Shown: piece after piece, positions 12,473 to 37,622 of the stretch | Numbering within the stretch: the stretch's first letter is position 1 | Layout of the letters: each line of letters begins with the position of its first letter | Source of the DNA: a virus | Virus record (IMG/VR): IMGVR_UViG_3300046817_000092 | Coordinates: 1-58,677 of that record | DNA: 58,677 bases | Reading direction: 5' to 3' (one strand) | Notes under the pieces: model-generated | Databases searched by the model: none | What the model was told of the DNA's origin: nothing | Seen by the model: the letters and a program-made list of their open reading frames with translations, nothing else | Translations under genes and position numbers: made by a program

Positions 12473-12679
12473 ATGGGTACACTAACCCTTGCACAGATTG
12501 ATGCCGCGTTGGAAATTGATAACCGCGGCAAGGCACCGAAAGCCGCTCGTTGGTTCGATGGTAACGAATGGCATAGCACCAATCCGCCGACTGGCTATAC
12601 TATCGGCATCTTTGAAGGTAAGGCCGGTAAGTCTCGCCGCTTCATCACTACTCGTTCGGTCGTTGCATACAAGCCTTAG
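12473..12679 (+). CDS. Small early protein with shared N-terminal motif (68 aa)
   Basis: Starts MGTLTLAQIDAALEIDNRG, a version of the LSLxxIxxLL motif found at the N-termini of several other early proteins in this genome. ATG 12473 has AGAAAGG upstream; an in-frame ATG at 12446 lacks a ribosome binding site. The rest (ARWFDGNEWHST, KSRRFITTRSVVAY) is basic and aromatic with no known family. It is followed by a nested hairpin (12677-12743). Confidence 0.7.
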   Translation: MGTLTLAQIDAALEIDNRGKAPKAARWFDGNEWHSTNPPTGYTIGIFEGKAGKSRRFITTRSVVAYKP

Positions 12680-12743
12680 TTGTTAGAACAGCCGATAGGC
12701 GCCGCGATAACGCGCTTAATCGTCCTATCGGCTATTCCAACTA
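12677..12743 (+). ncRNA. Nested hairpin upstream of 32-aa membrane gene
   Basis: AGCCGATAGG (12690-12699) pairs perfectly with 12724-12733, and an outer TAGTTG/CAACTA pair (12677-12682 with 12738-12743) closes it. No U-tract follows, so it is not a classical terminator. A strong AAGGGGGTGA ribosome binding site comes right after it. Confidence 0.6.
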
Positions 12744-12762
12744 CTTAAGGGGGTGATAATAA

Positions 12763-12861
12763 GTGTTCAATCTGCCTCATCATGAATTGCGAGTTATTGT
12801 CGCGGTTATCCTGCTTTATGTACTAATGTTCGTGATATACAAGATCGCCGACCGCGCCTAA
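12763..12861 (+). CDS. Tiny membrane protein (32 aa)
   Basis: GTG 12763 follows AAGGGGGTGAT by 6 nt, matching the ribosome binding sites of the next genes. The product MFNLPHHELR is followed by one hydrophobic segment (VIVAVILLYVLMFVIY, residues 11-26) and a basic tail KIADRA, giving a single-pass membrane miniprotein. Small phage membrane proteins in early regions often act on the host envelope or on other phages; nothing more can be said. Confidence 0.65.
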   Translation: MFNLPHHELRVIVAVILLYVLMFVIYKIADRA

Positions 12862-13219
12862 CCCGCTAACGCGCCAATGATCCGCGATTTTAGTCGGATC
12901 GGCATGATTTTGCTAGCCTTTTTGTTGTTCCACCAGTCGCAGCCCCTTAAAGGGAAAAAGCTAAGGTGGATAACACGGATAACACGGATAAGTAGTACGT
13001 TTCTGTAGTATAATCACGTAGAGTATACTATAGGGTACAGACTGACGAATATTTGAGCCCGCAAGTATCTACTTATCCAAGTTCTTAAAGTTCTGACGAG
13101 CAAACAAGGTCGTAACTTTATCGAACAATCAGGTTCGTGAGGTTAGCAGCATAAGGTTTCCTAATGTGGACGAATACACCACATAAGAAATCCTGATCCC
13201 ACCACCCCGCGAATCAGGC

Positions 13220-13248
13220 TTGACATGCGAGTCCGAACCTGCTAGAGT
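13220..13248 (+). promoter_or_regulatory. Promoter, TTGACA-17-TAGAGT
   Basis: TTGACA at 13220-13225, a 17-bp spacer and TAGAGT at 13243-13248. It gives a leader of roughly 205 nt before the gene at 13462, most of which is taken up by a closed RNA element. Confidence 0.7.
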
Positions 13249-13312
13249 TCTAATCACGGCCGGACGATTCCAGTCGGCCCGAGCTAACTTTTTTGACCAC
13301 ACTCACCAGATA

Positions 13313-13439
13313 GGCTTAATAAGGCACATAAGTAAGACGGTAGCACCTGACCCCATAAACCGCTCCGGTTACCCCGGATCGAACGTCAGTCATACCGCGA
13401 CCAATAAGCACAACGGTCACTTGTGTGTCTTATTAAGTC
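13313..13439 (+). ncRNA. Structured RNA element closed by 20-bp helix
   Basis: Arms 13313-13332 and 13420-13439 pair over all 20 positions with three G-U wobbles and no mismatch. The loop is about 87 nt and contains GACGG and CGGTTACCCCGG-type inner pairings that I did not resolve. It ends 10 nt before an AGGAAGGGGGTGA ribosome binding site. Confidence 0.65.
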
Positions 13440-13461
13440 AATCTAGGAAGGGGGTGATAAG

Positions 13462-13677
13462 ATGGACGAACGAATGCGAATTGCAGAAATTAACGTGAAG
13501 GTAGGCGGAACTACGCCTAACGATGCAAAGCGTATTATGCGGCAAGCAGAAAAGGCTTTGCAGTCAGTCGAAGGGCTAACAGTAACGTCAATGTGGCTAG
13601 TTCGTGAAACGAACGTGCCACTAATTGACGAAGAACTTGATTCCGTGCTAAGACCAAAAGACGATTGGATACGCTGA
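13462..13677 (+). CDS. Small hypothetical protein (71 aa)
   Basis: ATG 13462 is preceded by AAGGGGGTGATAAG, an ideal ribosome binding site. The product has a basic helical centre (PNDAKRIMRQAEKALQSVEG) and an acidic C-terminal half ending PKDDWIR. No family recognised. It is expressed from the promoter at 13220 with a long structured leader. Confidence 0.75.
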   Translation: MDERMRIAEINVKVGGTTPNDAKRIMRQAEKALQSVEGLTVTSMWLVRETNVPLIDEELDSVLRPKDDWIR

Positions 13678-13682
13678 CTAGA

Positions 13683-13780
13683 GTGAGGCTGTTAGGGTAA
13701 ATCCGGCGAGTCACATGGAATTGACCATGCGCTTATTAAGTGGATGCGGAATCGCACCCGTCGGTACTTGACAGTCTCAC
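13683..13780 (+). ncRNA. Nested hairpin overlapping a promoter
   Basis: GTGAGGCTGT (13683-13692) pairs with 13771-13780 (one G-U), and CATGG/CCATG (13714-13718 with 13725-13729) forms an inner stem. The 3-prime arm covers part of the TTGACA box at 13768, so the same DNA serves as a promoter and as an RNA stem of the upstream transcript. Confidence 0.5.
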
Positions 13781-13796
13781 GGTAGTCTGGTACAAT
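13768..13796 (+). promoter_or_regulatory. Promoter, TTGACA-17-TACAAT
   Basis: TTGACA at 13768-13773, a 17-bp spacer and TACAAT at 13791-13796, about 50 nt ahead of the gene at 13851. Confidence 0.75.
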
Positions 13797-13850
13797 GCCA
13801 CTAGATCGTTAAAACAAACCGCAAACAGACATCGGAAGGGGGTGAACAAT

Positions 13851-14207
13851 ATGTCAGACATGATTCTTTCACTTGCTGAGATTGATGCAATCCTCGCAGA
13901 GCCGCGTCGTACTCGCGGTGAGTACAAGCCGGTTGTGACTAACTTCGCTGATTCCGGTGAGATTGCAATGGATCTCACGGCTCGTTTTCCTGGTAAGACC
14001 GCTGCAAGTCTTAAGCAGTCGGTCAATGTTAACATCGAGAAGCATGGTGTTAAGGAGAATTGGCCCGCATTCAAGCTGCTTATCACTGGTAAGGATGATG
14101 AGTCCACTGGTGAGAAGGCTACGCTGCTTCTCGTTAATCTCGATGCCCACGCTGCTGCTACGGCCGCTGCTAAGGCTGCTGAGGTCGATACCGACGACGA
14201 CGAGTAA
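13851..14207 (+). CDS. Early protein with LSL-helix motif, paralogue of 21412 gene (118 aa)
   Basis: Starts MSDMILSLAEIDAILAEP, followed by TRGEYKPVV. The gene at 21412 has the same layout (LSLDAINDLL, TRGDYDGVL, then a central PGK or AGK segment), so the two are diverged paralogues of 118-119 residues with acidic or Ala-rich tails. ATG 13851 has AAGGGGGTGAACAAT upstream; a longer frame from 13740 runs through the promoter and is rejected. Function unknown; a small DNA- or RNA-associated protein is possible. Confidence 0.75.
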   Translation: MSDMILSLAEIDAILAEPRRTRGEYKPVVTNFADSGEIAMDLTARFPGKTAASLKQSVNVNIEKHGVKENWPAFKLLITGKDDESTGEKATLLLVNLDAHAAATAAAKAAEVDTDDDE

Positions 14208-14210
14208 GAA

Positions 14211-14309
14211 CTAAGGGTCAGTCCAGCGGTAAAGATCGGATGTAGTGGCTGGAGTTAGGCCGATTACCCTTAGTAGTCCAGCTAACTAACGGGTCAAGCC
14301 GAGTTAGCT
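14211..14309 (+). ncRNA. Two-domain structured RNA element
   Basis: CTAAGGGT (14211-14218) pairs with ACCCTTAG (14266-14273) and encloses CCAGC/GCTGG (14223-14227 with 14248-14252). A second stem, AGCTAACT/AGTTAGCT (14280-14287 with 14302-14309), follows. It ends 15-20 nt before the next ribosome binding site. Confidence 0.6.
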
Positions 14310-14336
14310 AATCGAAACAACGTAAGGGGGTGAATA

Positions 14337-14630
14337 ATGCATTACGTGATGAAGTATGAGGTCTACCAACAGTACGGTGGGCCGGAGGAAGGCGGATGGT
14401 GGTATGAGGAGGGTATTGCACAATGGCGATTCCCGATTCCTGTACCGTCCCAAAGTCTCGCCTACAGACTGTGCAGGGTTCTTAACGACCGCGAACACGA
14501 ACGTCGTAAGACTGAGTGTGATTATGAGTACACTTCAGTCTTGAGTGATCGTGATACGTTCTACGGTTACGGTATTGCTGATACATTCCGGCCGCAGAAC
14601 TACCCAGAGCTTAAACCGCATTACGAGTAA
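14337..14630 (+). CDS. Hypothetical protein rich in Tyr and Trp (97 aa)
   Basis: ATG 14337 follows AAGGGGGTGAATA. The sequence is unusually aromatic (YEVYQQYGGPEEGGWWYEEG) with a central basic region (NDREHERRKTECDYEY). No family recognised. It stands alone between two structured RNA elements. Confidence 0.72.
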   Translation: MHYVMKYEVYQQYGGPEEGGWWYEEGIAQWRFPIPVPSQSLAYRLCRVLNDREHERRKTECDYEYTSVLSDRDTFYGYGIADTFRPQNYPELKPHYE

Positions 14631-14690
14631 GTTTCACGACAACGCTTGACAATCGCACCAACCTGTGCAAGAATTGTCAAGTAAGGAAAC
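14631..14690 (+). ncRNA. Three-tier hairpin
   Basis: GTTTC/GAAAC (14631-14635 with 14686-14690) encloses CTTGACAAT/ATTGTCAAG (14645-14653 with 14673-14681), which encloses GCAC/GTGC (14655-14658 with 14665-14668). A TTGACA at 14646 with AAGAAT 17 bp downstream may also act as a weak promoter. Confidence 0.6.
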
Positions 14691-14708
14691 CGCGAACGAG
14701 GGAAGGGG

Positions 14709-14930
14709 GTGATTGCCATATATACCGACACCAACTTCAAGACTAAGAAGGCACTTAAAGAGGCTGTTGCCGACGGTAAGGAAGTGACCGTATTTCAGCC
14801 TAACAACATCTTTGGTAACCCAACACCGAAAGACGGTAACATCACACTGGAAGGGCCGCACTATCCTGCACCACATTCCTGGTACGCTCAGGCTACGCTT
14901 AAGGATGGCCTGGTCATTAAGGTGAAATAA
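14709..14930 (+). CDS. Small hypothetical protein with unusual start codon (up to 73 aa)
   Basis: The frame reads IAIYTDTNFKTKKALKEAVA and on to DGLVIKVK, a plausible compact alpha/beta protein. Its start is odd. The only ordinary start codon is the GTG at 14709, and it lies inside the AAGGGGGTGA ribosome binding site itself. At the spacing used by neighbouring genes the start would be ATT (14712) or ATA (14718). I give the GTG as the outer limit. No family recognised. Confidence 0.6.
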   Translation: MIAIYTDTNFKTKKALKEAVADGKEVTVFQPNNIFGNPTPKDGNITLEGPHYPAPHSWYAQATLKDGLVIKVK

Positions 14931-14967
14931 GTAACAAGCAGGGGTGCGGCTGCACAACGCACAGTAG

Positions 14968-15082
14968 GGTTAATGAAGCAATTAGGATGGATATGAGGGG
15001 CGACAATTGCAGCCAAATCGTCCGTCCTTGCTGCAAGGAAAAGCGATCGGACAGATCGCCTGTTCTAATTGTCTCATTAACT
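14968..15082 (+). ncRNA. Structured RNA element, homologous to 16141-16253
   Basis: Arms 14968-14985 and 15065-15082 pair over 18 positions with one mismatch. Inside are TTGCAGC/GCTGCAA (15007-15013 with 15030-15036) and GCGATC/GATCGC (15043-15048 with 15054-15059). The outer arms and the following CATTAACTCTATT..AACGAAAGG flank recur at 16141-16265. Confidence 0.65.
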
Positions 15083-15110
15083 CTATTCAACGAAAGGGGG
15101 TGAACAAACA

Positions 15111-15560
15111 ATGAAGTATTCCGAGTTGGATGCCACGATCGTAAACCTGCGAGAGTGTGCTGATTGGCTTGAGTCTAATCCAAGGGCTATCGAATTGCCC
15201 GCGATGAGGTTTGAGTCACAAGAGCGGATTTACGAGTATGCTAAGAACGCTGATGGTACTACGGATTGGGAGACGGTTAACGAGTTTGCCGTCCGTAGTA
15301 AGATGCGTCAAATCGCGAAAGCTCTGCGCAACGCTACGAAGGATTATTCCGGTCACGTCTTTAGGCTTACTAAGACGTTCGGTGATAGTCGATGGTCTAA
15401 GGGTTCTGTTACACTTGACTTCACTTCGGATCGTAACGCAATCTGCCGTAAGGTAGTCAAAGAGACTAAGCTTATTCCAGAAAGGACAGAGGTTTATCCT
15501 GCTAGGACAGAGGAAGTGGTAGAGTGGGTGTGCGACGACGCACTACTCGCCTCTAAGTAA
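15111..15560 (+). CDS. Hypothetical protein (149 aa)
   Basis: ATG 15111 follows AAAGGGGGTGAACAAACA. The N-terminal half is helical with many charged residues (MKYSELDATIVNLRECADWL), and the rest alternates basic and acidic stretches. No catalytic motif or family is recognised. It is a monocistronic unit between two structured RNA regions. Confidence 0.72.
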   Translation: MKYSELDATIVNLRECADWLESNPRAIELPAMRFESQERIYEYAKNADGTTDWETVNEFAVRSKMRQIAKALRNATKDYSGHVFRLTKTFGDSRWSKGSVTLDFTSDRNAICRKVVKETKLIPERTEVYPARTEEVVEWVCDDALLASK

Positions 15561-15596
15561 GTTAAAGGACGTAAAGAGGGTACGATACAGATTCGT

Positions 15597-15762
15597 GCCC
15601 CCGGAGTGACTATTAGTGAGTTCATCACTTAACAACTCGTTAAACCCAAAGGTTAATATCCCGTTCACAGGATAGATACCGCGTGTTCAGGTAGAGTTGG
15701 CTAGTAGAGTTGACTTCACTCAGCCACGTATAAGGTCGCAGGTTTGAATCCTGCCGGGGGCT
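15597..15762 (+). ncRNA. tRNA-like RNA, 166 nt, with acceptor stem and T-arm
   Basis: GCAGG-TTTGAAT-CCTGC (15738-15754) is a perfect T-arm followed directly by CGGGGGC (15755-15761). That segment pairs perfectly with GCCCCCG at 15597-15603. The 3-prime half resembles a tRNA-Arg, and GTAGAGTTGGCTAG (15691-15704) resembles a D-arm. About 86 nt, with hairpins AGTGA/TCACT (15615-15629) and TTAAACC/GGTTAA, lie between the 5-prime acceptor strand and that D-arm. No clear anticodon arm. It could be a split or decayed tRNA, an attP-like tRNA mimic, or a tmRNA-like RNA. Confidence 0.5.
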
Positions 15763-15817
15763 GCTCTTTACCTAGTAACGAGGCGTCATAATCCACGCCT
15801 ACCTTTAACACTAGCTC

Positions 15818-15961
15818 GTAAGGGCTAGTGGGATTTAGTGAAGTGTTACAAGGAATGACAAAGGAAGGCCCGCTGCAACGGTTAACCTTCTACAAATCAT
15901 TCGCTCTTGCAGGAGAATCCGGCTTTCGTCGGCACATTCACTAAGTCCCACTAGCTCTTAC
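15818..15961 (+). ncRNA. Structured RNA element closed by 25-bp helix
   Basis: Arms 15818-15842 and 15937-15961 pair at all 25 positions with two G-U wobbles. The 94-nt loop includes a 29-codon frame (15855-15944) preceded by AAGGA, but that frame runs into the 3-prime arm and is more likely accidental. Confidence 0.65.
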
Positions 15962-16140
15962 AAGCCTAACGTCGATTGTACCTGTTACCGCAGATAGTAA
16001 GACAAAGCCCTAAAGGTTGATGCATAAATGGTTAGGTGCCAAATTAGAGGCATAAAAGAATGATCCGGTTAAACTCCGCGCATTACCTAATCCGCTAGCT
16101 GCTACTTCTGCCATTAGAGGGAGACGTTAGAACAAAAGTA

Positions 16141-16253
16141 GAGTTAATGAGCTAATAGCCGGAACCGAAGTGACCTGACACTGACTAAGAGGAAGTGACT
16201 AGCCTCCGGTGATTAGGTGCCTAGTCAGCAGATGGTTATTAGCTCATTAACTC
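16141..16253 (+). ncRNA. Structured RNA element closed by 20-bp helix
   Basis: Arms 16141-16160 and 16234-16253 pair at all 20 positions with one G-U. CTGACTA/TAGTCAG (16181-16187 with 16222-16228) forms an inner stem capped by GAGG/CCTC. The arms and 3-prime flank match the element at 14968-15082, while the loop does not. Confidence 0.68.
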
Positions 16254-16278
16254 TATTAACGAAAGGAGGGTAGACACC

Positions 16279-16701
16279 ATGATAGGAGCATTCTCGGGAA
16301 AGTGGAAAGGATTATCTAACTTTGAACCTTGCGAAATAGTCTGGGAAGGGTTAAGATTTCCAACTACTGAACATGCTTTTCAGGCTGCTAAGACACTTGA
16401 CATGGATGAGCGTCATGTGATAAGATTGATGAAATCTCCTGGTCAAGCTAAACGTGCTGGACGAGTTGTTACACTTAGACCGAATTGGGAGGAAATCAAG
16501 ATTCCCACAATGGAACAGATTGTTAGACTCAAGTTCATTCAACCTGAGTTCAAAGAATTGTTACTTTCAACTGGTGAACAAGAATTACAAGAGGGTAACT
16601 GGTGGGGTGACACGTTCTGGGGTGTCTCCATCCAAACAGGTAGAGGCCGTAACGAGTTAGGTAAGATCCTAATGAGACTTCGTGAATCGCTTGAGAGTTA
16701 A
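16279..16701 (+). CDS. NADAR domain protein (YbiA-like N-glycosidase fold)
   Basis: This 140-residue protein shows the NADAR signature from end to end: LSNFEPCEI at 14-22, FPTTEHAFQAAK at 33-44, GDTFWGVS at 112-119 and GRNELGKILMRLR near the C-terminus. Family members cleave N-glycosidic bonds in riboflavin precursors, and some remove ADP-ribose from guanine in nucleic acid. A phage copy could undo host ADP-ribosylation-based defence or act in NAD metabolism (inference). ATG 16279 has AAAGGAGGGT upstream. The gene follows a 20-bp-helix RNA element and precedes a strong promoter. Confidence 0.88.
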   Translation: MIGAFSGKWKGLSNFEPCEIVWEGLRFPTTEHAFQAAKTLDMDERHVIRLMKSPGQAKRAGRVVTLRPNWEEIKIPTMEQIVRLKFIQPEFKELLLSTGEQELQEGNWWGDTFWGVSIQTGRGRNELGKILMRLRESLES

Positions 16702-16702
16702 G

Positions 16703-16731
16703 TTGACACAGAGGCAGAATGCTGCTAGACT
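16703..16731 (+). promoter_or_regulatory. Promoter, TTGACA-17-TAGACT
   Basis: TTGACA at 16703-16708, a 17-bp spacer and TAGACT at 16726-16731. It drives the run of small genes from 16818. The leader holds a 6-bp hairpin ATGGTG/CACCAT (16746-16763). Confidence 0.78.
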
Positions 16732-16817
16732 GTATAATCAACGGCATGGTGTCAACTCACCATATCGCAGACTTTTCCACGGTATAGCATATATAGCTAG
16801 AAGGGAGGTTTACCGCC

Positions 16818-17066
16818 ATGTACGATGATGAAGGTTACGACGATTACGACCGCGATGATGACGAATACCGCATCGACTTTGCTAATCCTGGCTCTGCACT
16901 AAGAGCCGCATCGGCATCAAATCCCCGTAACTTGCCTTGTCCTAGTTGTCACTGGCCAAACCGCTTGACGCCAGAGGATGTTGCACACCACTATCAGTGT
17001 GATAGTTGTGCCAACGCTGCTGAAACAGGCCGTGACATTGACTACTACGAAGGTGATGATGAGTAA
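16818..17066 (+). CDS. Acidic zinc-ribbon protein (82 aa)
   Basis: Residues 1-20 are almost only Asp, Glu and Tyr (MYDDEGYDDYDRDDDEYR). A CPSC...CDSC pair (about residues 41-63) forms a zinc ribbon, and the tail is acidic again. Ribosome binding site AGAAGGGAGG precedes ATG 16818. Zinc ribbons with acidic tails often bind nucleic acid or polymerase partners; the exact role is unknown. First gene after the 16703 promoter. Confidence 0.75.
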   Translation: MYDDEGYDDYDRDDDEYRIDFANPGSALRAASASNPRNLPCPSCHWPNRLTPEDVAHHYQCDSCANAAETGRDIDYYEGDDE

Positions 17067-17086
17067 TTATGGGAGGGTGATTCATA

Positions 17087-17248
17087 ATGGGTTGGGTTGT
17101 TGTTATTCCATCAGTCGGTAAATCTCCAAATCTGCACAAGTTGTTGGGGTATGAGGTTATCAGAGACGTGTCAGTTTCTGCCACGATGACCGCTATTGCA
17201 CTTGATCGTGCGGCAACTAAAATCGACAGGTCTTTTAACCGCAACTGA
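17087..17248 (+). CDS. Small hypothetical protein (53 aa)
   Basis: The frame MGWVVVIPSVGKSPNLHKLL ends in DRSFNRN. GGGAGGGTGATTCATA stands before ATG 17087, as in neighbouring genes. It looks like a beta-alpha miniprotein. No family recognised. It ends 10 nt before the tRNA-Leu gene. Confidence 0.68.
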   Translation: MGWVVVIPSVGKSPNLHKLLGYEVIRDVSVSATMTAIALDRAATKIDRSFNRN

Positions 17249-17258
17249 CCGCTTTATC

Positions 17259-17342
17259 GCCCCGATGGTGGAATTGGCATACACAACAGACTTAAAATCT
17301 GTCGCCTGTAAAGGCTTGAGGGTTCGAGTCCCTCTCGGGGCA
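17259..17342 (+). tRNA. tRNA-Leu(UAA)
   Basis: An 84-nt cloverleaf with acceptor GCCCCGA/TCGGGGC, anticodon stem ACAGA/TCTGT with loop CTTAAAA (anticodon TAA), a long variable arm typical of Leu and Ser tRNAs, and T-arm GAGGG-TTCGAGT-CCCTC. No CCA is encoded. It reads UUA codons, which are frequent in the phage genes and rare in high-GC actinobacteria. Confidence 0.95.
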
Positions 17343-17371
17343 TTCATCTACAAAGAAAGGTGGTGAATCTA

Positions 17372-17617
17372 ATGAGTGATGATGCAATTATTATCGACAC
17401 GCCTGATGGTATTGAGGCTTATCGACTTTTGGCTATTAAGGGCCGTCTATGGCTTGAGTTGAAGGGTATTCACTTTAAGCCACTACCGGGTTACGGTTCA
17501 ACATTCTCTTACGTCAAAAAGACGTATGGATTTAAAGGCCCCAAAGTTGATGTATACTATCGGTACGTTGCTATGCTCAAGGAGAGAGGAGTGTTACAGG
17601 AAGATGTATGTGACTAA
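17372..17617 (+). CDS. Hypothetical protein (81 aa)
   Basis: Starts MSDDAIIIDTPDGIEAYRLL. I use ATG 17372, about 7 nt after the AAAGGTGGTGA site; the GTG at 17360 lies inside that site. The central part (GRLWLELKGIHFKPLPG) is basic and aromatic. No family recognised, but small proteins of this type beginning with a similar IDTPDGI(E)AYRLLAxKGRLxLE pattern are common in actinophages. It overlaps the next gene by 14 nt. Confidence 0.75.
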   Translation: MSDDAIIIDTPDGIEAYRLLAIKGRLWLELKGIHFKPLPGYGSTFSYVKKTYGFKGPKVDVYYRYVAMLKERGVLQEDVCD

Positions 17618-17846
17618 GACACCTGCTGAGAAAGAAGGGTTTGTTGTACTTAAGTGCAAACCTTGCACAGTGTGTGGTACTACAAAAGAGTTCACACTTA
17701 ATGATATGGCTGTAGCTGCTTGGGAGGCTGGTGGGCATATTCAGAAGGTTATGCCAGACTTGACCCAAATGGATCGTGAGACACTTATCTCTGGGGTTTG
17801 TAGTGATAAGTGTTGGGACGAGTTGTGGGGTGAAGGGTTTGAGTAA
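17604..17846 (+). CDS. Small zinc-finger-like protein (80 aa)
   Basis: CKPCTVCG in the first third and CSDKCWDE near the end provide a possible four-cysteine metal site. I chose ATG 17604 with ACAGGAAG upstream; a longer frame from 17526 lies inside the previous gene. No family recognised. It overlaps both neighbours. Confidence 0.7.
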   Translation: MYVTKTPAEKEGFVVLKCKPCTVCGTTKEFTLNDMAVAAWEAGGHIQKVMPDLTQMDRETLISGVCSDKCWDELWGEGFE

Positions 17847-18036
17847 GCCATTCGATCACACTGATCCTAATACATTCGTTAGGAATCAAAAGGTGTGGAT
17901 TATGATTGATGGTAAGCGTGTTATGGGAATTTATGATGAACCTAGCGGTGATGGTTTTCACTACGTACACACAGTTGAGACACCTGCTGGTTCATACAGA
18001 GCAACATCATCGGAAGTCACTGAACGTCACATCTAA
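17830..18036 (+). CDS. Small hypothetical protein (about 68 aa)
   Basis: The clear coding stretch is KPFDHTDPNTFVRNQKVW to VTERHI, a likely small beta-barrel (VWIMIDGKRVMGIYDEP). There is no ATG at the start: GTG 17830 and TTG 17839 are both possible, the second overlapping the previous stop. No family recognised. Confidence 0.65.
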   Translation: MKGLSKPFDHTDPNTFVRNQKVWIMIDGKRVMGIYDEPSGDGFHYVHTVETPAGSYRATSSEVTERHI

Positions 18037-18050
18037 CGAAAGGAGTTAGC

Positions 18051-18341
18051 ATGAAGTATCTAGTTCTTAGGAATGAGGCAATTCACCGTAAGGGTCGGAA
18101 GTCTCAGATGAACAGTAGCATGTTTCCGATCGAGATTGAGGTTGAAAACTATAGAGCGATGGAGTATAGTTCAGAACAAATCGTGCGTATGGCACTTGAT
18201 ACCATCAACCCCGGTTATGTGGGCATGTATGAGTATGTGGTAGTCCCCATGTTCAATGCAAGCGTAGTCCAGTTTAGGCCGGTTAAGCCTCAGCTTGATG
18301 TTCAGGTTAAAGCATACGACGACTCAAGCCGAGTTAGGTAA
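18051..18341 (+). CDS. Hypothetical protein (96 aa)
   Basis: ATG 18051 follows CGAAAGGAGTTAGC. The product (MKYLVLRNEAIHRKGRKSQM onward) is alpha/beta with no motif or family that I recognise. It belongs to a tightly packed run of small genes on the transcript from 16703. Confidence 0.75.
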   Translation: MKYLVLRNEAIHRKGRKSQMNSSMFPIEIEVENYRAMEYSSEQIVRMALDTINPGYVGMYEYVVVPMFNASVVQFRPVKPQLDVQVKAYDDSSRVR

Positions 18342-18344
18342 GCC

Positions 18345-18989: not shown

Positions 18990-18990
18990 C

Positions 18991-19221: not shown

Positions 19222-19223
19222 CG

Positions 19224-19394
19224 GTGGGGTATATTGTACTACCGAAACAATTAAAACGTATTCAAGAGTTAAGCACAACCGCGGAAAGTATTGAGTTGTT
19301 ATGGTTGCCTGGAGGCATACTTCTAATCACTTGGATAAAAGGTCAAGCCCACAGACACCGAATCGACAGGGATGGGGTTGTAAAAGATGAATAA
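19224..19394 (+). CDS. Possible small protein with hydrophobic centre (56 aa)
   Basis: GTG 19224 starts two bases after the previous stop. The product GYIVLPKQLKRIQELSTT is followed by ESIELLWLPGGILLITWIKG, a hydrophobic beta or membrane-like stretch, and a basic end. No ribosome binding site is obvious; reinitiation after the upstream stop would be needed. It fills an otherwise empty 215-bp gap. Confidence 0.5.
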   Translation: MGYIVLPKQLKRIQELSTTAESIELLWLPGGILLITWIKGQAHRHRIDRDGVVKDE

Positions 19395-19436
19395 TCTAGT
19401 ATGGCATCTGTATGAGAAGGTGGTGATTAACAAGCA

Positions 19437-21411: not shown

Positions 21412-21771
21412 ATGTCTGCACTTTCACTCGATGCCATTAATGATCTGCTTAAGGGTGGAAAGACCCGCGGCGATTATGATGGCGTGCTTGATAACTTCCT
21501 TTCCAGTGATGATGCTGGTATCGAGGTTGACCTCACTAGTGGTCCTCTCGCTGGTAAGGATGCAAAGAACGTCGTGACCGGATTCAATAACGCTAAGACT
21601 CGTATGGTTAAGGAGACGGGTCAGCCGAAGCATCCGGGTGGTCATGCTGTTAAGGTTATTAAGCGCACGGTTGGTGAGGGAGACTCTGCTGTTGACCATG
21701 TTTTCCTTATTAATACCGCGAAGGTTGGCGGCGCCGCAACTGAGGCACCGGCAGAAGCACCTGCTGAGTAA
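21412..21771 (+). CDS. Early protein with LSL-helix motif, paralogue of 13851 gene (119 aa)
   Basis: Starts MSALSLDAINDLLKGGKTRG. Same plan as the 13851 product: motif helix, TRGxY, NF, a central GPLAGKDAKN-type segment, a basic beta stretch, and an Ala/Glu/Pro-rich tail (here a PAEAPAE repeat). AAGGAGAGATACATT precedes ATG 21412. Codon use suggests high expression. Function unknown. Confidence 0.78.
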   Translation: MSALSLDAINDLLKGGKTRGDYDGVLDNFLSSDDAGIEVDLTSGPLAGKDAKNVVTGFNNAKTRMVKETGQPKHPGGHAVKVIKRTVGEGDSAVDHVFLINTAKVGGAATEAPAEAPAE

Positions 21772-22150
21772 CTAATAAGTGTGGGATGGGGTTAGCTTCC
21801 ACAGTAACCCCATCTCATACTGTACCCCAGGTGAGAGTAGTGTTAGCCGCTACGGGCATTACTCAATATACTGGGGTACAGTATGGGAATCTCATAATGA
21901 ACCACTGGTGAAGGTGCGACAGTAGCCAAGAGTAATCAGTGGTTCATTATGGGAAGTGTCGCAAATTGCGCTAGGCACTATCCAGAAGTGGTAGGGGTAA
22001 GCGCACACTACTACCTACCACATAAGAAATTTGGAAGAGTTCTTAGTCGGACTAAGTTAGAGGAAATCAATGCAACGGTACAGATCGTTGGTTGACTAGA
22101 TTCACTTAGTCCGACTAAGGACTTTTCTTAATAACTAGGAGAGAGGCACC
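21772..22150 (+). ncRNA. Array of five long hairpins
   Basis: Five consecutive perfect stems fill this gap: 10 bp (21785-21794 with 21805-21814), 14 bp (21817-21830 with 21871-21884), 15 bp (21893-21907 with 21937-21951), 8 bp (21988-21995 with 22014-22021) and 15 bp (22042-22056 with 22105-22119). Several have inner stems, for example CAACG/CGTTG in the last. No poly-U tail follows any of them. The array would be transcribed from the promoter at 21199 or earlier. Confidence 0.7.
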
Positions 22151-22422: not shown

Positions 22423-22451
22423 TTGATTTCTTTACTCCATTGTGCTATACT
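22423..22451 (+). promoter_or_regulatory. Promoter, TTGATT-17-TATACT
   Basis: TTGATT at 22423-22428, a 17-bp spacer and TATACT at 22446-22451. Transcription should start at about 22457-22459, on or next to an ATG at 22458. Confidence 0.72.
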
Positions 22452-22457
22452 GGCCGC

Positions 22458-22685
22458 ATGGCAGCGCGCGCCTGGTGGGGTTATATGCGGTTTCGCGGTT
22501 TCCGTAATAACCCCACCATTTTTCTTTACGCTGATAACTGGGTTAGTGCCCCACAACGCGCTAACTCAGTTAGGAGCGTAACGCTCCGAACACCCCAGAA
22601 CCACCCCCAGGGTCACGCAGACCCTAAAAGTGATAAGGGGGCTAGCTACAATAGTGGTCTAGTCCCCTTATTACTGTCTCTGTAA
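22458..22685 (+). ncRNA. Promoter-proximal structured leader / small RNA
   Basis: Starting at the predicted +1, the transcript forms an 11-bp stem (22474-22484 with 22507-22517) followed by a U-rich tail (a terminator), then four further hairpins (22537-22570, 22573-22587, 22610-22624, 22633-22671). A 75-codon frame begins at the ATG on +1 (MAARAWWGYMRF) and could be a leaderless peptide, but it runs through every hairpin, so I favour an RNA with attenuation ahead of the Rpf-like gene. Confidence 0.5.
22473..22527 (+). terminator. Rho-independent terminator or attenuator
   Basis: A 12-bp stem TGGTGGGGTTAT/ATAACCCCACCA followed by TTTTTCTTT, only about 20-60 nt after the transcription start of the promoter at 22423. 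Transcripts stopping here would be about 65-70 nt. Confidence 0.75.
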
Positions 22686-26171: not shown

Positions 26172-26174
26172 CCC

Positions 26175-26203
26175 TTGACTTTTCGGGCCGAGTGTGCTAT
26201 AAT
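26175..26203 (+). promoter_or_regulatory. Promoter, TTGACT-17-TATAAT
   Basis: TTGACT at 26175-26180, a 17-bp spacer and a consensus TATAAT at 26198-26203, about 60 nt before the recombination gene block at 26264. Confidence 0.8.
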
Positions 26204-26263
26204 GCAGCATACCGCAAGTTCACAAATCACGCAACGCAACTAACCGCGAAAGAGAGATAAACC

Positions 26264-29408: not shown

Positions 29409-29421
29409 AGATTAACAATTT

Positions 29422-29521
29422 GGGCACACCGAGGCTTATAGAAAATAAGAGAAGCGTCGGAGGGAAGGGTGGTTTGATCTGGTGAAAGCGCGTAAGTAGC
29501 CAGTGAGAGGTAGGTGTGCCT
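29422..29521 (+). ncRNA. Structured RNA element with CTGGTGAA motif
   Basis: GGGCACACC (29422-29430) pairs with 29513-29521 (9 bp, one G-U). The inner 25 nt at 29479-29503, from CTGGTGAAAGCG to GTAGCCAG, match the loop at 21905-21929 in 20 of 25 positions. It lies between the SSB-like and collagen-like genes. Confidence 0.6.
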
Positions 29522-29543
29522 ATTCTTATGAATAAGGAGATCA

Positions 29544-30191
29544 ATGAAGAATGCAATTATCGCGGCAATCGTTGCTGCTGTTGTTAGTGTTAGTGTAGGA
29601 GCAGCAGCAACTGATGGTCCATTACCGGGTAAGCAGCACTTTGCTAACTTCGGTCCGTTCTGTATTGCTAAGGGACCAAATTGGTTAGCTCGCGGTGGTG
29701 TTATGCGAGCAGTAAGAACGGGACAGAAGTGTTTTCCTGGTGAGAGACGGATTTTCCATAAGAGAATCCCGATTGGTTCGTCTATTCGTATCACTGGTAA
29801 GCAGGGTGCTACTGGATTGACTGGTCCTTCTGGTGCAATTGGAGCAACTGGTCCAGCCGGACCTAGTGGTTCTAATGGATCGAATGGTTCTAATGGTTCA
29901 AGTGGTACACCCGGTTCAAAGGGTGACACTGGTTCTAATGGTTCAATTGGTCCCGCTGGTCCCACTGGTTTAACGGGACCTATGGGTGCTACTGGTGCCA
30001 CTGGTCCACAGGGACCGGCTGGTAAAGATGGCACTAACGGTACTAACGGTAAGGATGGTGCTGGATTAGGTAACGGCACAATCCAGGTTTGTGTAAGTAA
30101 TGGTGGTTCATTGCAGATGGATGTTAATGGACAGCCCTGTGATAATCAGGGACACACACCTATTACGTTGGTCGTAGTCAATTCCGGTTAA
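29544..30191 (+). CDS. Secreted collagen-like protein (215 aa)
   Basis: Residues 1-22 (MKNAIIAAIVAAVVSVSVGA) are a signal peptide. Residues about 25-90 form a globular head with two cysteines. About 92-175 is a collagen-type Gly-X-Y repeat (GATGLTGPSGAIGATGPAGP and on). The tail again has two cysteines. GGAG precedes ATG 29544. Collagen-like repeats usually occur in phage fibres, but this gene is in the early arm and has an export signal, so it may act at the host surface. Confidence 0.85.
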   Translation: MKNAIIAAIVAAVVSVSVGAAATDGPLPGKQHFANFGPFCIAKGPNWLARGGVMRAVRTGQKCFPGERRIFHKRIPIGSSIRITGKQGATGLTGPSGAIGATGPAGPSGSNGSNGSNGSSGTPGSKGDTGSNGSIGPAGPTGLTGPMGATGATGPQGPAGKDGTNGTNGKDGAGLGNGTIQVCVSNGGSLQMDVNGQPCDNQGHTPITLVVVNSG

Positions 30192-30538: not shown

Positions 30539-30546
30539 TTAGTATC

Positions 30547-30579
30547 TAACAGGGGTTGGTGTCACAACCGCCCCTGTTA
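30547..30579 (+). terminator. Hairpin, probable terminator
   Basis: TAACAGGGG/CCCCTGTTA (9 bp) with an inner GGTTG/CAACC stem follows the acidic-protein gene. The U-tract is short (TTATT), so termination may be partial. Confidence 0.55.
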
Positions 30580-30581
30580 TT

Positions 30582-30731: not shown

Positions 30732-30746
30732 GTAGTCAGGAGATTT

Positions 30747-32942: not shown

Positions 32943-33493
32943 GCAAAGGCGCACGACTCCGTAATAAGCGTAAACAAATCGAACACGAAAGGTTGTCTCG
33001 CGTGAGCGCAATTAATGGTACTGGTGAACCTGACGTTGGACCGGATATTGAGTGGGACTCACTTAATCCACCTACTGTGCATGAATGTAGTTTCGCGGAT
33101 CATTTCCATGCACCATTTTGTGACGGTACCTGTGCAGATGTTGTTATGGACGAGCTTGATGTTAAGATCCTTAATGAGAAGAAGGCATGGACTCGCGCTG
33201 GTATGCATATCGTAGCAGTACCGTATGGTGTTGCAGATCAGGTTTGTATGCCTGGAATGAAGATTGAGTTGTTTGAGATGGAAGCTAAGTTAGTTGGTCT
33301 TATTGAAGCTGTGCAAGAAGCTGTTGGTATCAGCGACGAGGCGTATAACTTCCATTATCGTCAAGCTATCTACAACCGCTTAAAGATGGTTCGTGAGGCT
33401 AACGAGAATCGTGTTAAGCAGGAACGTCTTGCTGCACAGATGGGTATTGCACCTAAGAAGATTCTTGGTCCTGACGGTACACCCCTTTCCTAA
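32939..33493 (+). CDS. Hypothetical replication-block protein (184 aa)
   Basis: The N-terminus is basic (MSKGARLRNKRKQIEHERLS); a Cys/His group (HECSFADHFHAPFCDGTC, about 42-61) could bind metal; the C-terminal half is helical. It overlaps its neighbours on both sides (4 nt and 1 nt), so it is co-translated with replication enzymes. Function unknown. Confidence 0.72.
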   Translation: MSKGARLRNKRKQIEHERLSRVSAINGTGEPDVGPDIEWDSLNPPTVHECSFADHFHAPFCDGTCADVVMDELDVKILNEKKAWTRAGMHIVAVPYGVADQVCMPGMKIELFEMEAKLVGLIEAVQEAVGISDEAYNFHYRQAIYNRLKMVREANENRVKQERLAAQMGIAPKKILGPDGTPLS

Positions 33494-33810
33494 TGGCTCT
33501 CACTGAGGGTGTTAAATTAGACGAAGGAAAAACTCGTTGGGACTTGTGGAGTCCTGATGCTTTAGAGGCTACTGCCAACGTGCTTGAGTTTGGTGCTCGT
33601 AAGTATGAAGAACACAACTGGGCTAAAGGACTTAAGTACAGTCGCGTATTTAGAGCATTACTTGGTCACTTGTGGGACTTTTGGCGCGGGCGTAAGAACG
33701 ACGAAGAAACAGGCTTACCTCATTTAGCTCATGCTATGTGTTGTCTTATGTTCTTGCTTCACTATGAATGCAATAGACGCAAATATAGACCGTTCGACGA
33801 TAGGCCGTAG
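33493..33810 (+). CDS. MazZ/DUF5664-like dATP/dGTP pyrophosphohydrolase
   Basis: A 105-residue protein with KLDEGKTRWDLWSPDALE at the start, FGARKYEEHNWAKG in the middle and HLAHAMCCLMFLLHYE at the end. This is the pattern of the DUF5664 family (dATP/dGTP diphosphohydrolase N-terminal domain, including MazZ of phage S-2L), MazG-like helical enzymes that cut nucleotides to monophosphates. Full length for the family. It may tune dNTP pools. No PurZ-type gene is present, so a modified-adenine genome is not supported. Confidence 0.78.
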   Translation: MALTEGVKLDEGKTRWDLWSPDALEATANVLEFGARKYEEHNWAKGLKYSRVFRALLGHLWDFWRGRKNDEETGLPHLAHAMCCLMFLLHYECNRRKYRPFDDRP

Positions 33811-34011
33811 ATGATTATGACTATGACGCCTGCTGCAATTGAACAGCGTCGTGCCAATTCTAAGGCAATTGCAGATCGTAAACGTGCTGAAACCGAATGC
33901 AGTAGAGGTCACAGTAATTGGCGAGTCCGTCCAAAGAATGGTAGACGATACTGTCTAACGTGTCAACTTGATCGACAATGGTATGGAAGGAGGGGACTAC
34001 CCTACGTATGA
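33811..34011 (+). CDS. Small zinc-finger protein (66 aa)
   Basis: CSRGH...RRYCLTCQ (about residues 30-53) is a CH-CC zinc site of the type seen in HNH-associated or recombination endonuclease-like small proteins, but the HNH catalytic residues are absent. Starts directly after the previous stop. Basic overall, probably DNA-binding. Confidence 0.7.
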   Translation: MIMTMTPAAIEQRRANSKAIADRKRAETECSRGHSNWRVRPKNGRRYCLTCQLDRQWYGRRGLPYV

Positions 34012-34220
34012 AGGAGACAGATCCGTTCATTATGAATGAGACAGAGTGGTTTTATGTGTATACCATAGATTTTGATCAAGACAATTTTGGCATCTTTTCT
34101 ACGCGAGAAGAAGCTGAGAAATCATTAGAAGAACAAATTACAGGTCACGGACCAGCGTGGGAGGATTGTCATATTACTCGACGTATGATTCACGGAAAGC
34201 CTGAAATTGATGGACGTTAA
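34008..34220 (+). CDS. Small hypothetical protein (70 aa)
   Basis: Starts MKETDPFIMNETEWFYVYTI. ATG 34008 overlaps the end of the previous gene, with GGAGGGG about 12 nt upstream. Acidic alpha/beta protein; no family recognised. It overlaps the polymerase gene by 11 nt. Confidence 0.68.
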   Translation: MKETDPFIMNETEWFYVYTIDFDQDNFGIFSTREEAEKSLEEQITGHGPAWEDCHITRRMIHGKPEIDGR

Positions 34221-36618
34221 ACGTAAACATCCACTTGCCGAGTGTGAGAGTTGTCCTCTTGCTAAAGAGAAGATGGCGCCTACTTGTGGTGATCCTAACT
34301 CTAAGGTGGCATTCGTCTCTCGTAGTCCTGGCAAGTATGACATAGCTACTGGTGTGCCATTTAGTAACCCACACGGTTCTAAGGCCGTGCTTGAGAACCT
34401 GTTAGGGAGGTACAGAATTGCGCGCAAAGATATTATTACTACGAATGTTGTTCTGTGTAGAACGGATGATCCTTCGCCTGCTGCTATCAAATCATGCAAG
34501 CCTAGACTTGAGGACGAAATCAAAAATTGTAGTCTTGTTATTGCCGCAGGAACCGAAGCTACCATTGCTCTTACAAGATATAGAGCCGTCTTTACTGCAA
34601 GACCATTTGTTCATAACCGAACTTCTAGTGGAGGAACTCCGCAACGAGTTATCGTCACTAACAATCCCGCAATTGTAGTTCGTGATTCAGACAAGTATCC
34701 AGATATGGTGGATGACTTTAAGAGGGCATTCGATCCTATTCCACCTCCTGTATTTCCTAGCGTGGAGATAATCAACGATGTTGATAGAGCTAGAGTTGCA
34801 CTCGAAAGATGGACAGAGAATCTTCCTGTATTATTGGCGTCCGACCTTGAGTGGCAACAAGATGACACACCAACTTGCGCTGGATTCTCTGCAAGAGGCG
34901 AGAAAGCAGTTGTATTTGGTTTGGGAGCAATTAGCGATAGACGAGTATGGGATCTTATCAGAAGAATCTACGAACGAACTGAAACTAGCTTCATCTGGCA
35001 CAACGGTAAGTCTGACACTAAAGTCTTAGTCAAAGCTGGTGTCGATGCGCGTGTAGACGAGGACACTTACTTGATGAGTGTGGCACTTGATGAACGTCCT
35101 GGTTATCATAGTCTTGAGTATCTTATGAGTACACAGTTCGGTTGGCCAGACTATGAACCCAAAAGTGTTAAGCACTTTAAGACGACGGGAGAGTTTCTTG
35201 GAAAGACCGATGCCGAAAAGAGAATGTCAGAACGTGAGTTGTACAAATACAATGGTTGGGATACAGCCGGCACATTCCAACTATATAATGTACTTGAGCC
35301 GAAACTTGACTCTGATAGAGGCGGTTCCGTCAGACCTGTATATAAGCGTCTATTACATGCAGGAGAACGATTCCGTATAGTTGAACTTAACGGATTCCCG
35401 TTCGATTCAGAAACCGCGTTGAATATTAATGAACGTGAAGCAATACCGCGAATGCTGGAACTAAGCGAACGAGAGCGTGAAATCACCAAGCATCCTCTTT
35501 TAAATCCCAACTCGTCTCAACAGCTTAAAGCAATCATTTATGATGAGTGGGGACTTAAGCACTCTTTGCGTGATGCCGGTCCCAAGAAACTCTCAACCAG
35601 CACAGGCAAAGAAGTTAGAGAGATTATTGAACGTGGCGAATTCATTTCTAATCTTGAAAACCGCACACAACTTATGGAATGGGCTGCGACTCATCGAGCC
35701 TATAAAAAGATTCAGGATATCAGGAGCAGATACATTGAAGGATTGGTTAGACGAGCACAACGAGACGGAAAGATTTACGGTCACTTTAACGTGGGTGGAG
35801 GAACAGTCTCCGGACGGGCGAGTAGTAACGATCCAAACCTGCAAAACATTATCAGAGAAGGGTACGAGAACATCCCAGGTATGCGAACTATGTTCTTACC
35901 TTCTCCGGGAAACGTTATCATCTCGGCAGATTTCTCCCAAGCTGAGCTTAGAACATGTGCAAAACTTAGCGGAGATGATGCTCTATTGGGCATATATCGG
36001 GATAGTACCCGAAGTCTCCATAAAGAGCGAGCCGCTAAGTTTTATGGACCGGGGTATACGAAAGAAGAGTACGTTAAGTCTAAGAATATTAATTTCGGCG
36101 TGACATATGGGCAGGGCGCAGATGCCTTTGCACAGATGTATCATATGGACAAGGATGAAGCACAAGAGTATATTAATGACTGGTGGGGTCAATTCTCTCA
36201 ATTAAAGGCGTGGACACTTGAAACCGCACAGCGAGCAAGAAAAGATGGATATGTTATCTCTCCATTCGGACACAAACGGCGGTTCCACCTTATCACAGAC
36301 GAAAACTTGGGAGATGTGGAGAGAGAATCGGTTTCTTTCCTTCCTCAGAATATTGCTGCTTGGCTCACTATTTGTGCTCTTTGTGATCTTGTGGATAATG
36401 GCATCCGTATTGTGGCTACTGTGCACGACAGTATCGTGGCTGACATACCAATTAGTCAAACTGATGAGGTTGCTGGGATGATGCGTGAGGTTATGATTGC
36501 TCAGGCATCTAAGCAACTAGGTTGGGATGATATCCCATTTGAGGTTGATGTTAGTATTGGACCCAATTGGGGCGACTTGCACGATTGGGTGATGAGCGAT
36601 GAGAGGATTGCAGCATGA
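34210..36618 (+). CDS. polA: DNA polymerase I with N-terminal UDG-like domain
   Basis: An 802-residue replicative polymerase. Residues about 1-160 look like a family 4/5 uracil-DNA glycosylase fold with Cys residues CESC and C near 25, but the catalytic GExPG and HPS motifs are changed to SRSPG and NNPAIV. A 3-5 exonuclease starts at about 205 (DLEW carries the metal-binding D and E). The polymerase has motif A DFSQAELR (about 571), motif B with NFGVTYGQG (about 630) and motif C VHDS (about 738). It overlaps both neighbours. The fusion may tie uracil recognition to synthesis. Confidence 0.93.
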   Translation: MDVKRKHPLAECESCPLAKEKMAPTCGDPNSKVAFVSRSPGKYDIATGVPFSNPHGSKAVLENLLGRYRIARKDIITTNVVLCRTDDPSPAAIKSCKPRLEDEIKNCSLVIAAGTEATIALTRYRAVFTARPFVHNRTSSGGTPQRVIVTNNPAIVVRDSDKYPDMVDDFKRAFDPIPPPVFPSVEIINDVDRARVALERWTENLPVLLASDLEWQQDDTPTCAGFSARGEKAVVFGLGAISDRRVWDLIRRIYERTETSFIWHNGKSDTKVLVKAGVDARVDEDTYLMSVALDERPGYHSLEYLMSTQFGWPDYEPKSVKHFKTTGEFLGKTDAEKRMSERELYKYNGWDTAGTFQLYNVLEPKLDSDRGGSVRPVYKRLLHAGERFRIVELNGFPFDSETALNINEREAIPRMLELSEREREITKHPLLNPNSSQQLKAIIYDEWGLKHSLRDAGPKKLSTSTGKEVREIIERGEFISNLENRTQLMEWAATHRAYKKIQDIRSRYIEGLVRRAQRDGKIYGHFNVGGGTVSGRASSNDPNLQNIIREGYENIPGMRTMFLPSPGNVIISADFSQAELRTCAKLSGDDALLGIYRDSTRSLHKERAAKFYGPGYTKEEYVKSKNINFGVTYGQGADAFAQMYHMDKDEAQEYINDWWGQFSQLKAWTLETAQRARKDGYVISPFGHKRRFHLITDENLGDVERESVSFLPQNIAAWLTICALCDLVDNGIRIVATVHDSIVADIPISQTDEVAGMMREVMIAQASKQLGWDDIPFEVDVSIGPNWGDLHDWVMSDERIAA

Positions 36619-36875
36619 AAGACTATAGGGGCTTAATAGCATTACTCGTCTCAGCAGCACTTATGTTTGCGCTTCTGACGGGTGTTGCTGGTATTATTTG
36701 GTGGGGCACTAAGATATCGACAGAAGGATCTGTTGTCATTGGTATGCTTATCGGAGCAATCACGATAATTGGTTCTGCATATCTTGGCGTCTATCTTACT
36801 TATATTCGTACTAGTGGACGAAGGCAGAGATGGCCTGGGGAGAAGAATGATGATGAGGACACGTTAGTACCATGA
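36615..36875 (+). CDS. Small membrane protein, two transmembrane segments (86 aa)
   Basis: Two hydrophobic helices, LIALLVSAALMFALLTGVAG and VVIGMLIGAITIIGSAYLGV, are followed by a basic loop and an acidic tail. It overlaps the polymerase gene by 4 nt. A membrane anchor or superinfection-exclusion type protein is possible; no family recognised. Confidence 0.72.
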   Translation: MKDYRGLIALLVSAALMFALLTGVAGIIWWGTKISTEGSVVIGMLIGAITIIGSAYLGVYLTYIRTSGRRQRWPGEKNDDEDTLVP

Positions 36876-37084
36876 TGAGCGCAAGAAATAGAATGCACAA
36901 CGATCCAGTATTCGCAACTTTAGTTAAAAGTATGTACGATATATTTGAGACTACTTGTGGAACTGGTGCGGGTGTTACTCCAACTGAGATACGTGAAGCT
37001 AGTGGGTTAGCTTGGCAAATATATGTAGAACGTCACGCAGAACCAATTACTTTTAAGCCCACTGAATGGGGTCACCCACGATGA
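36872..37084 (+). CDS. Small hypothetical protein (70 aa)
   Basis: Starts MMSARNRMHNDPVFATLVKS with a helical N-terminal half and a basic end (VERHAEPITFKPTEWGHPR). It overlaps both neighbours by 4 nt. No family recognised. Confidence 0.68.
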   Translation: MMSARNRMHNDPVFATLVKSMYDIFETTCGTGAGVTPTEIREASGLAWQIYVERHAEPITFKPTEWGHPR

Positions 37085-37290
37085 TTAAGAAACTTGACAA
37101 TTGTGACATAATCCCGCGTGAGATTTTAGTTAGTAAGATCAATGAGTTAATCGTAGATGTTAACAGATTAGCTCAAATCATGTTAGATGAGGAAGATGAT
37201 TCACTAAAGGAAGCCCTGGAGGAGATACGGGCGACACTCTTCAAAGATGGAAGCATACAAATCATTAAGGGTTTGGATAGTTGTGACTGA
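37081..37290 (+). CDS. Small helical protein (69 aa)
   Basis: Starts MIKKLDNCDIIPREILVSKI. ATG 37081 overlaps the previous stop (ATGA). Acidic, amphipathic helices throughout. No family recognised. Confidence 0.68.
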   Translation: MIKKLDNCDIIPREILVSKINELIVDVNRLAQIMLDEEDDSLKEALEEIRATLFKDGSIQIIKGLDSCD

Positions 37291-37510
37291 ACTGTGCAAT
37301 GAACCCACTACTTCAGGGAAGCCTTGTAACATGAAGAAGGGGCATCCCGCACGCTTCCATCGTCACCGTGAATACACAAGAACAGAGTGGATAATGAAGA
37401 ATAGTGACGGTAAGCGAGTAACCTCGGGGGTCGGCATAAATGACTTAACTGCCGCAATCGCTATATACCGCAAGAGTGATATAACCCTAACAATCGAAAT
37501 CCTGTGCTGA
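37283..37510 (+). CDS. Small Cys/His protein (75 aa)
   Basis: I start at GTG 37283 inside the overlap with the previous gene. CNEPTTSGKPCNMKKGHPARFHRH (about residues 5-28) is a possible C-C-H-H metal site of a kind common in small actinophage proteins. The remainder is beta-rich. Last gene before a 130-bp structured gap. Confidence 0.65.
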   Translation: MTELCNEPTTSGKPCNMKKGHPARFHRHREYTRTEWIMKNSDGKRVTSGVGINDLTAAIAIYRKSDITLTIEILC

Positions 37511-37533
37511 ACCGTCCGAGCGAATCGAGCTAT

Positions 37534-37622
37534 GAGCGGCTGCCCAGGGGGTACGCTAAGGCTACCCTAGGCCGATCCGGGGCTGTCCTGCCAGACTTAG
37601 AGGCCGTCACACAGGGCCGCTC
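37534..37622 (+). ncRNA. GC-rich structured element
   Basis: GAGCGGC (37534-37540) pairs with GCCGCTC (37616-37622) and encloses GGGTA/TACCC and other short GC-rich stems. It fills the gap ahead of the resolvase gene. Confidence 0.5.

Follow-up and report, generated by a model that had tools for sequence, protein, structure and literature searches.

Gaps between the early genes of an uncultured virus of bacteria hold several kinds of structured elements, for which we observe pairing at the RNA level, covariation, conserved position, absence of U-tracts, and spread among relatives. As far as the compared sequences tell, it is the shapes of the elements, mostly not their sequences, that are preserved in many related viruses. 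The explanation that we consider best, with about even confidence, is that several structured RNAs in the early leaders would be cut out as discrete RNAs, setting the 5′ ends for the next genes.

Genome and Relatives

The analyzed stretch of DNA, here called the window, comprises 58,677 nucleotides (positions 1–58,677 of IMG/VR virus record IMGVR_UViG_3300046817_000092). Its right-going early arm codes for a helicase, an exonuclease, a Sak4-like protein, a primase, and a DNA polymerase, and its distant relatives are Curtobacterium, Arthrobacter, and Streptomyces phages. Near-identical contigs exist (99.9–100%); they are identical to the window at the elements and thus useless for covariation, so all comparison was made with distant phages. 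A helicase-profile search gave about 50 more uncultured contigs with 40–64% protein identity. We examined 28 relatives, whole or in part, oriented by helicase or polymerase and with home-made gene calls, and assessed covariation by pair counting on small alignments, without a covariance model. About 25 uncultured relatives carry such elements. With regard to the host and to prophages, 84,980 bacterial genomes contained no relative of the helicase, and the cultured phages searched gave no near match to the window.

Sites with RNA Structure

The preliminary description had listed 14 sites in the early arm as one family of nested-hairpin RNAs. Eight of them are real RNA structures, two are borderline, and four are no better than shuffled sequence. 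In the whole window, an ungapped stem finder returned 12 stems with a score of at least 16, whereas none of 10 dinucleotide-preserving shuffles yielded any, and most of these stems fall in early-arm gaps. The folding z-scores were −8.0 at 13313, −5.3 at 14968, −3.6 at 15597, −8.7 at 15818, −7.4 at 16141, −11.1 at 21785–22119, and −7.4 for the 22537 region, while coding controls had a mean of −0.64 (sd 0.93, lowest −2.99). The sites at 12677 (−2.6) and 13683 (−2.2) are borderline, and those at 14211 (−0.8), 14631 (−0.7), 30198 (−0.6), and 37534 (+0.9) are unremarkable; the 14631 site is an inverted repeat (palindrome) over a TTGACA-17-AAGAAT promoter. At 29422, z is only −1.6, yet this is a conserved RNA with covariation. 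The borderline elements and the hairpins of the 22537 region are as follows:

12678–12745, + strand: hairpin with a 22-position stem (3 mismatches, no G-U), ending 17 nt before the start at 12763
13681–13781, + strand: branched hairpin, borderline; its 3′ arm overlaps the −35 box of the promoter at 13768–13796 (TTGACA-17-TACAAT)
about 22532–22571 and 22629–22675 (17 positions), + strand: two simple hairpins

The first of these hairpins is stronger on the other strand, and no homologue of it was found.

A single family for all sites had to be given up: motifs, sequences, and positions sort the sites into separate groups, with at least four unrelated kinds of element in addition to the four listed sites that are nothing special. 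It was also an overstatement that gaps without elements are almost absent, as there are none in 15968–16136, 16702–16817, 19222–19436, and 26172–26263. The outer helices, described as 20–25 bp with only G-U exceptions, extend to 29–30 positions, and some contain A-C or other mismatches.

The dinucleotide z-score misleads in both directions, since it missed R1 (see below) and is equally low for perfect inverted repeats on the reverse strand; we therefore used a test based on G-U pairs. A G-U pair holds in the RNA of one strand only, and the other strand reads A-C there. On the early (+) strand, gap stems of the clade contain 156 G-U pairs versus 79 A-C mismatches (p = 6 × 10−7), compared with 23 and 34, respectively, for stems in coding sequence; the ten window early-arm stems of 17–30 positions have 23 G-U versus 6 A-C on the + strand (p = 0.002). 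This excess indicates selection on the + strand RNA.

A T-tract, defined as six or more T in ten bases, follows 0 of the 93 clade elements, in agreement with the earlier remark on missing U-tracts; the one window exception is a 12-bp hairpin near 22472–22519. The terminator scan remained below the shuffle mean. The elements are thus not ordinary terminators, and the view that they are RNAs rather than terminators fits both the G-U asymmetry and the missing U-tracts, although termination without U-tracts is compatible with the sequence as well. Strong hairpins between early genes are what terminators or attenuators of this kind, as reportedly found in the phiC31 early region, would look like. 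We nevertheless regard that alternative as improbable: the class A elements described below are linked in position to the next start rather than to the previous stop, promoters are not regularly found downstream of the hairpins, and termination needs neither branched interiors nor tRNA-like folds.

Clamp Elements

The outer helices share base motifs between phages. Class A has the 5′ motif AGRGYTARTRA and the 3′ motif TYAYTARCYCT; it occurs in the window at 14963 and 16137, with variants at 13306 and 15814. Class B, with TTG opposite GAG or GAA and a constant G-G mismatch, is found mainly in the relatives G003, G018, G021, G030, and G033. The class A clamps of the window are:

13306–13446, + strand: helix 13306–13335/13417–13446 (24 Watson–Crick and 3 G-U pairs of 30), 81-nt interior; the 3′ arm ends 15 nt before ATG 13462
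14963–15087, + strand: helix 14963–14990/15060–15087, motif AGGGTTAATGA / TCATTAACTCT, 69-nt interior; ends 23 nt before ATG 15111
15814–15965, + strand: 29-position helix 15814–15842/15937–15965, branched 94-nt interior; start codon 313 nt away, not adjacent
16137–16257, + strand: 24-bp helix 16137–16160/16234–16257, motif AGAGTTAATGA / TCATTAACTCT; ends 21 nt before ATG 16279

A promoter, TTGACA-17-TAGAGT at 13220–13248, is upstream of the first clamp, which therefore lies within that leader. The gene directly downstream of the last one (16279–16701) codes for a NADAR-domain protein (PF08719).

To avoid circularity, membership in the class A test set required nothing but the two 11-base motifs within 300 nt of each other; this gave 14 motif pairs, where shuffled genomes predict 0. 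The next ten bases inwards are private to each element, yet 127 of 140 cells pair; with partners swapped, 73.6 ± 7.8 cells pair, with a maximum of 100 in 2000 trials. The repetition of class A and B motifs in inverted orientation ahead of genes is also what paired inverted DNA binding sites, such as operators or the ESAS of cluster K, would give. A DNA site, however, predicts neither flanking helix sequences that are private and still complementary nor a preference for G-U over A-C, so we consider this reading very improbable.

Class A helices mostly end 11–23 nt ahead of a start codon; 14 of 19 class A 3′ arms fall 8–27 nt ahead of one, against 1 of 19 for class B, and for all elements together 25 are start-adjacent versus 14.6 ± 3.2 expected. 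The interiors are often branched, vary from 3 to more than 200 nt, and are structured on average, if modestly (mean z −1.6, with 43% below −1.5). One interior, R4, is common to a class A clamp of G013 and a class B clamp of G018 (about 70% identity), so the interiors look like modules, as the sequence comparison suggests; GCAATTGCATAATA stands at the interior start in three phages. For most interiors, including those of the window, no homologue was detected. A further candidate interior family, R3 (GAATGACAAAG ... CAAATCATTC), was dropped because its scan gave 1 match versus 2 in shuffles.

These data bear on the main rival, a simple leader model in which the helices serve the mRNA solely for its leader or its processing, such as RNase III sites or the stability hairpins found between T7 early genes, and the interiors are passive filler. 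It would account for class A ending at the ribosome binding site, for a helix length that, from general knowledge, suits RNase III, and for the wide range of interior lengths. The same gene can also lie behind different upstream structures, as is the case for the window gene at 14337 and its G006 homologue at 5164, which follows a 47-nt tRNA-like fold. Since RNase III does not need conserved base motifs, and since some interiors are common to phages and clamp classes and R1 and R2 have conserved unpaired cores, we judge the simple leader model to be possible but, on balance, unlikely.

The R1 RNA

29419–29524, + strand: R1 RNA upstream of the gene at 29544, with stems P1 (10 bp), P2, and P3

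R1 has a conserved unpaired core, GAGG ... GGGAAG ... GAGGUA, and similar gap sequences are present in G018, G028, L062, G004, and G031. Its P1 is anchored by the invariant GAGG and GAGGUA, and all five of the five different P1 sequences pair. Overall, 98.3% of cells pair and both sides have changed in 16 of 20 pairs, a result reached by 0 of 500 shuffles; in some rows, R1 and its P3 were aligned manually or to the most complementary stretch, so these pair counts lean towards structure. The P1 result is the cleanest, because P2 and P3 were delimited by eye. A pattern of the 37-base core matched in this clade only. Downstream, the middle part of ORF 29544–30191 matches many tail-fibre families (PHROGs).

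The tRNA-like RNA R2

15561–15808, + strand: R2, a tRNA-like RNA with covariation

R2 has a 7-bp acceptor-like stem (15598–15604/15755–15761) and a perfect T-arm (15738–15754, GCAGG-TTTGAAT-CCTGC), and a 134-nt insert replaces the anticodon arm. The T-arm is followed by the acceptor 3′ strand, UGCU, the tail UAACGAGGCGUCA (15776–15788), and a hairpin, and the whole is closed by GTTAAAGG/CCTTTAAC. Thus, an acceptor stem and a T-arm with a TTYRANY loop are present, an anticodon arm with a 7-nt loop is not, and neither ARAGORN nor Rfam finds a tRNA at the window R2. Rfam returned nothing for R2 apart from one R2-like locus (L154) scored as tRNA, and a search for tmRNA found none.

Within the clade, R2 has relatives in G013, G018, G028, and G033. 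A pattern of the tail only matched 29 IMG/VR contigs of up to 163 kb that plainly belong to other lineages. Although the pattern did not require them, a T-arm and acceptor stand before the tail in most of these contigs, frequently together with a D-arm. About 20 IMG/VR contigs, from several lineages, carry the tRNA-like R2, with inserts of 70–134 nt. In other phage contigs (L149, L165, L167, L168, and L169), no T-arm precedes the UAACGAGGCGUCA tail, which may thus be an RNA module in its own right. Among cultured phages, Tetrasphaera phage TJE1, with the tail at 37776–37833 in an unannotated stretch, is the sole match for the R2 tail, and a second tail form matched nothing there.

In 13 distinct phages, 98.7% of acceptor and T-stem cells are paired, both sides have changed in 10 of 12 pairs, and 45 double changes were counted versus 13.4 ± 3.1 expected; as 5′ acceptor strand we took the most complementary stretch, backed by conserved flanks, so these counts lean towards structure. 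The tail is 97% paired, with 24 double changes versus 7.7 ± 2.0 expected, and outside the clade it forms a junction with covariation at 6 of 6 pairs of the closing stem. The + strand gaps contain 19 T-arms outside tRNA genes versus 0.6 expected, and the − strand has 3.

True tRNA genes are also present in the early arm, and this, together with the tRNA score of L154, is what one would expect if the tRNA-like elements were decaying tRNA genes. Such decay is hard to reconcile with an acceptor and T-stem that covary over 13 phages and with a specific tail that is invariant over unrelated phages, and we give it hardly any weight. Covariation and conserved pairing in relatives, on which the preliminary description had made its reading depend, are thus present: the class A clamps, R1, and R2 pair while both strands change.

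Hairpins after the 119-aa Gene, Promoters, and Other Repeats

21778–21821, 21813–21888, and 21890–21954, + strand: three successive hairpins with common CTCATA/TATGGGA, just 3′ of gene 21412–21771
22029–22132, + strand: hairpin with an inner stem; 29-position outer helix 22029–22057/22104–22132, ending 18 nt before ATG 22151

The first two hairpins both use 21813–21821, as 3′ arm and 5′ arm, respectively, and are therefore mutually exclusive; a switch at 21805–21830 is possible. A long hairpin starts within 130 nt after the 119-aa gene in 17 of 22 phages, compared with 5.4% of other gene ends, and here position is conserved and sequence mostly is not. These hairpins could be 3′ ends rather than leaders, and their placement is a further point for the termination reading discussed above.

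Genes 13851–14207 and 21412–21771 code for paralogous, clade-conserved small proteins, with structured RNA beside each gene. Considered as an RNA-binding partner, the 119-aa protein has no match in Pfam or PHROGs, and its AlphaFold model (pLDDT 80) matches no PDB fold at E ≤ 0.001. No shared protein partner was identified, which counts against our best explanation.

Five TTGACA-17 promoters, all on the + strand and with TG before the second hexamer, are located at 13220, 13768, 14646, 16703, and 21199; possibly most early genes each have a promoter. In 22423–22530, a promoter-like TTGATT-17-TATACT is followed about 20 nt on by the 12-bp hairpin near 22472–22519 and then by ATTTTTCTTT; this may be a short stand-alone RNA of about 70 nt. 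The inverted repeats 11798–11824/12007–12033 (27 positions) and 12039–12062/12425–12448 (24 positions) at the start of the early arm enclose the small ORFs 11848–11997 and 12090–12410, respectively. Similar gene-enclosing repeats are found in G013 (1527–1799) and G006 (769–1325).

Proposed Model

In our best explanation, the early arm carries several structured RNAs, namely clamps, R2, and R1, mostly in the leaders of early genes. A clamp consists of a 24–30-position helix with a conserved motif that closes a variable interior and usually ends where the ribosome binding site begins. A helix of 24–30 positions would be a good RNase III substrate. Host RNase III would cut the clamp helices in the early polycistronic RNA, and tRNA-processing enzymes would trim tRNA-like folds such as R2; cutting would free small structured RNAs and leave the next gene with a defined 5′ end at its ribosome binding site.

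A more far-reaching and rather doubtful reading is a modular RNA system, in which a shared clamp, its motif bound by a phage or host protein, carries swappable RNAs, including tRNA mimics, and R2 is a class across unrelated lineages with a layout related to T4 species 1 RNA. If it were true, early-expressed RNPs would act on host translation or RNA turnover.

Comparison with Known Systems

None of these groups is in Rfam 15, and we found no description of them in the open-access literature. Structured RNAs and tRNA-like RNAs encoded by phages are, as kinds, already known.

In the early region of phiC31, terminators without U-tails have reportedly been found. They resemble the present elements in being hairpins that lack U-tracts and lie in the early region of an actinophage; the window elements differ in being tied to the following start and in their conserved interiors.

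The RNase III sites of the T7 early region are simple hairpins with an internal loop. Like them, the clamps are long helices that lie between the genes of a polycistronic early transcript near the next ribosome binding site, so that by position and helix length they agree with RNase III sites, whereas the clamps have a conserved base motif that encloses large, branched interiors.

The SAS of cluster K mycobacteriophages is a 13-bp GGGATAGGAGCCC beside the start, and the ESAS are inverted repeats with spacers mostly of 4–13 bp and little support for mRNA hairpins (PMC3203893). Like the window elements, SAS/ESAS comprise inverted repeats upstream of some early starts, several per genome, with a subcluster-specific consensus (PMC3203893). 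Unlike ESAS, the window elements keep complementarity and have interiors of up to 200 nt, and the early starts in the stretch examined have AAGGGGGTGA-type sites in place of the SAS.

Y RNA and YrlA (RF02553), the partners of Ro, likewise have a long end helix around tRNA-like modules; the YrlA module is a permuted tRNA-like one, whereas R2 has the normal order. We rejected an assignment of the window elements to Y RNA, as there was no RF02553 match even at E ≤ 5 and no Ro gene. A Ro (TROVE) protein is absent from the window and 27 other records and present in G034 only. There (L121 780–1600 and 2517–4067), at least five RNAs arranged in tandem have the core GATGCGYAG..GGGTTACTTC..GTTCTC; two of them match YrlA below the gathering score, and the array is followed by a 516-aa Ro (TROVE) protein. 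By these sequence features, this phage has a Ro/Y-RNA locus that includes several Y-like RNAs.

The closest parallel in layout to R2 is T4 species 1 RNA (rnaC, NC_000866 70908–71046), annotated as a small, stable RNA. Both are phage-coded and have a tRNA-like 3′ part, and in the T4 RNA a structure of about 100 nt replaces the anticodon part; its T-arm, CCGGG-TTCGAAT-CCCGG, is followed by an acceptor-like strand. It differs from R2 in that 5 of 7 acceptor pairs form, as read by eye, in the lack of a UAACGAGGCGUCA tail, and in its genome order. Its annotation as stable is a precedent that such RNAs accumulate.

Gaps between early phage genes usually remain unannotated, and here several covarying RNA groups recur over about 25 uncultured phages, which offers a handle on the cutting and translation of early phage transcripts. 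Why phages carry tRNA-like RNAs without an anticodon is a question dating from T4 species 1 RNA, and R2, which crosses to unrelated phages and to the cultured TJE1, provides a testable handle on it.
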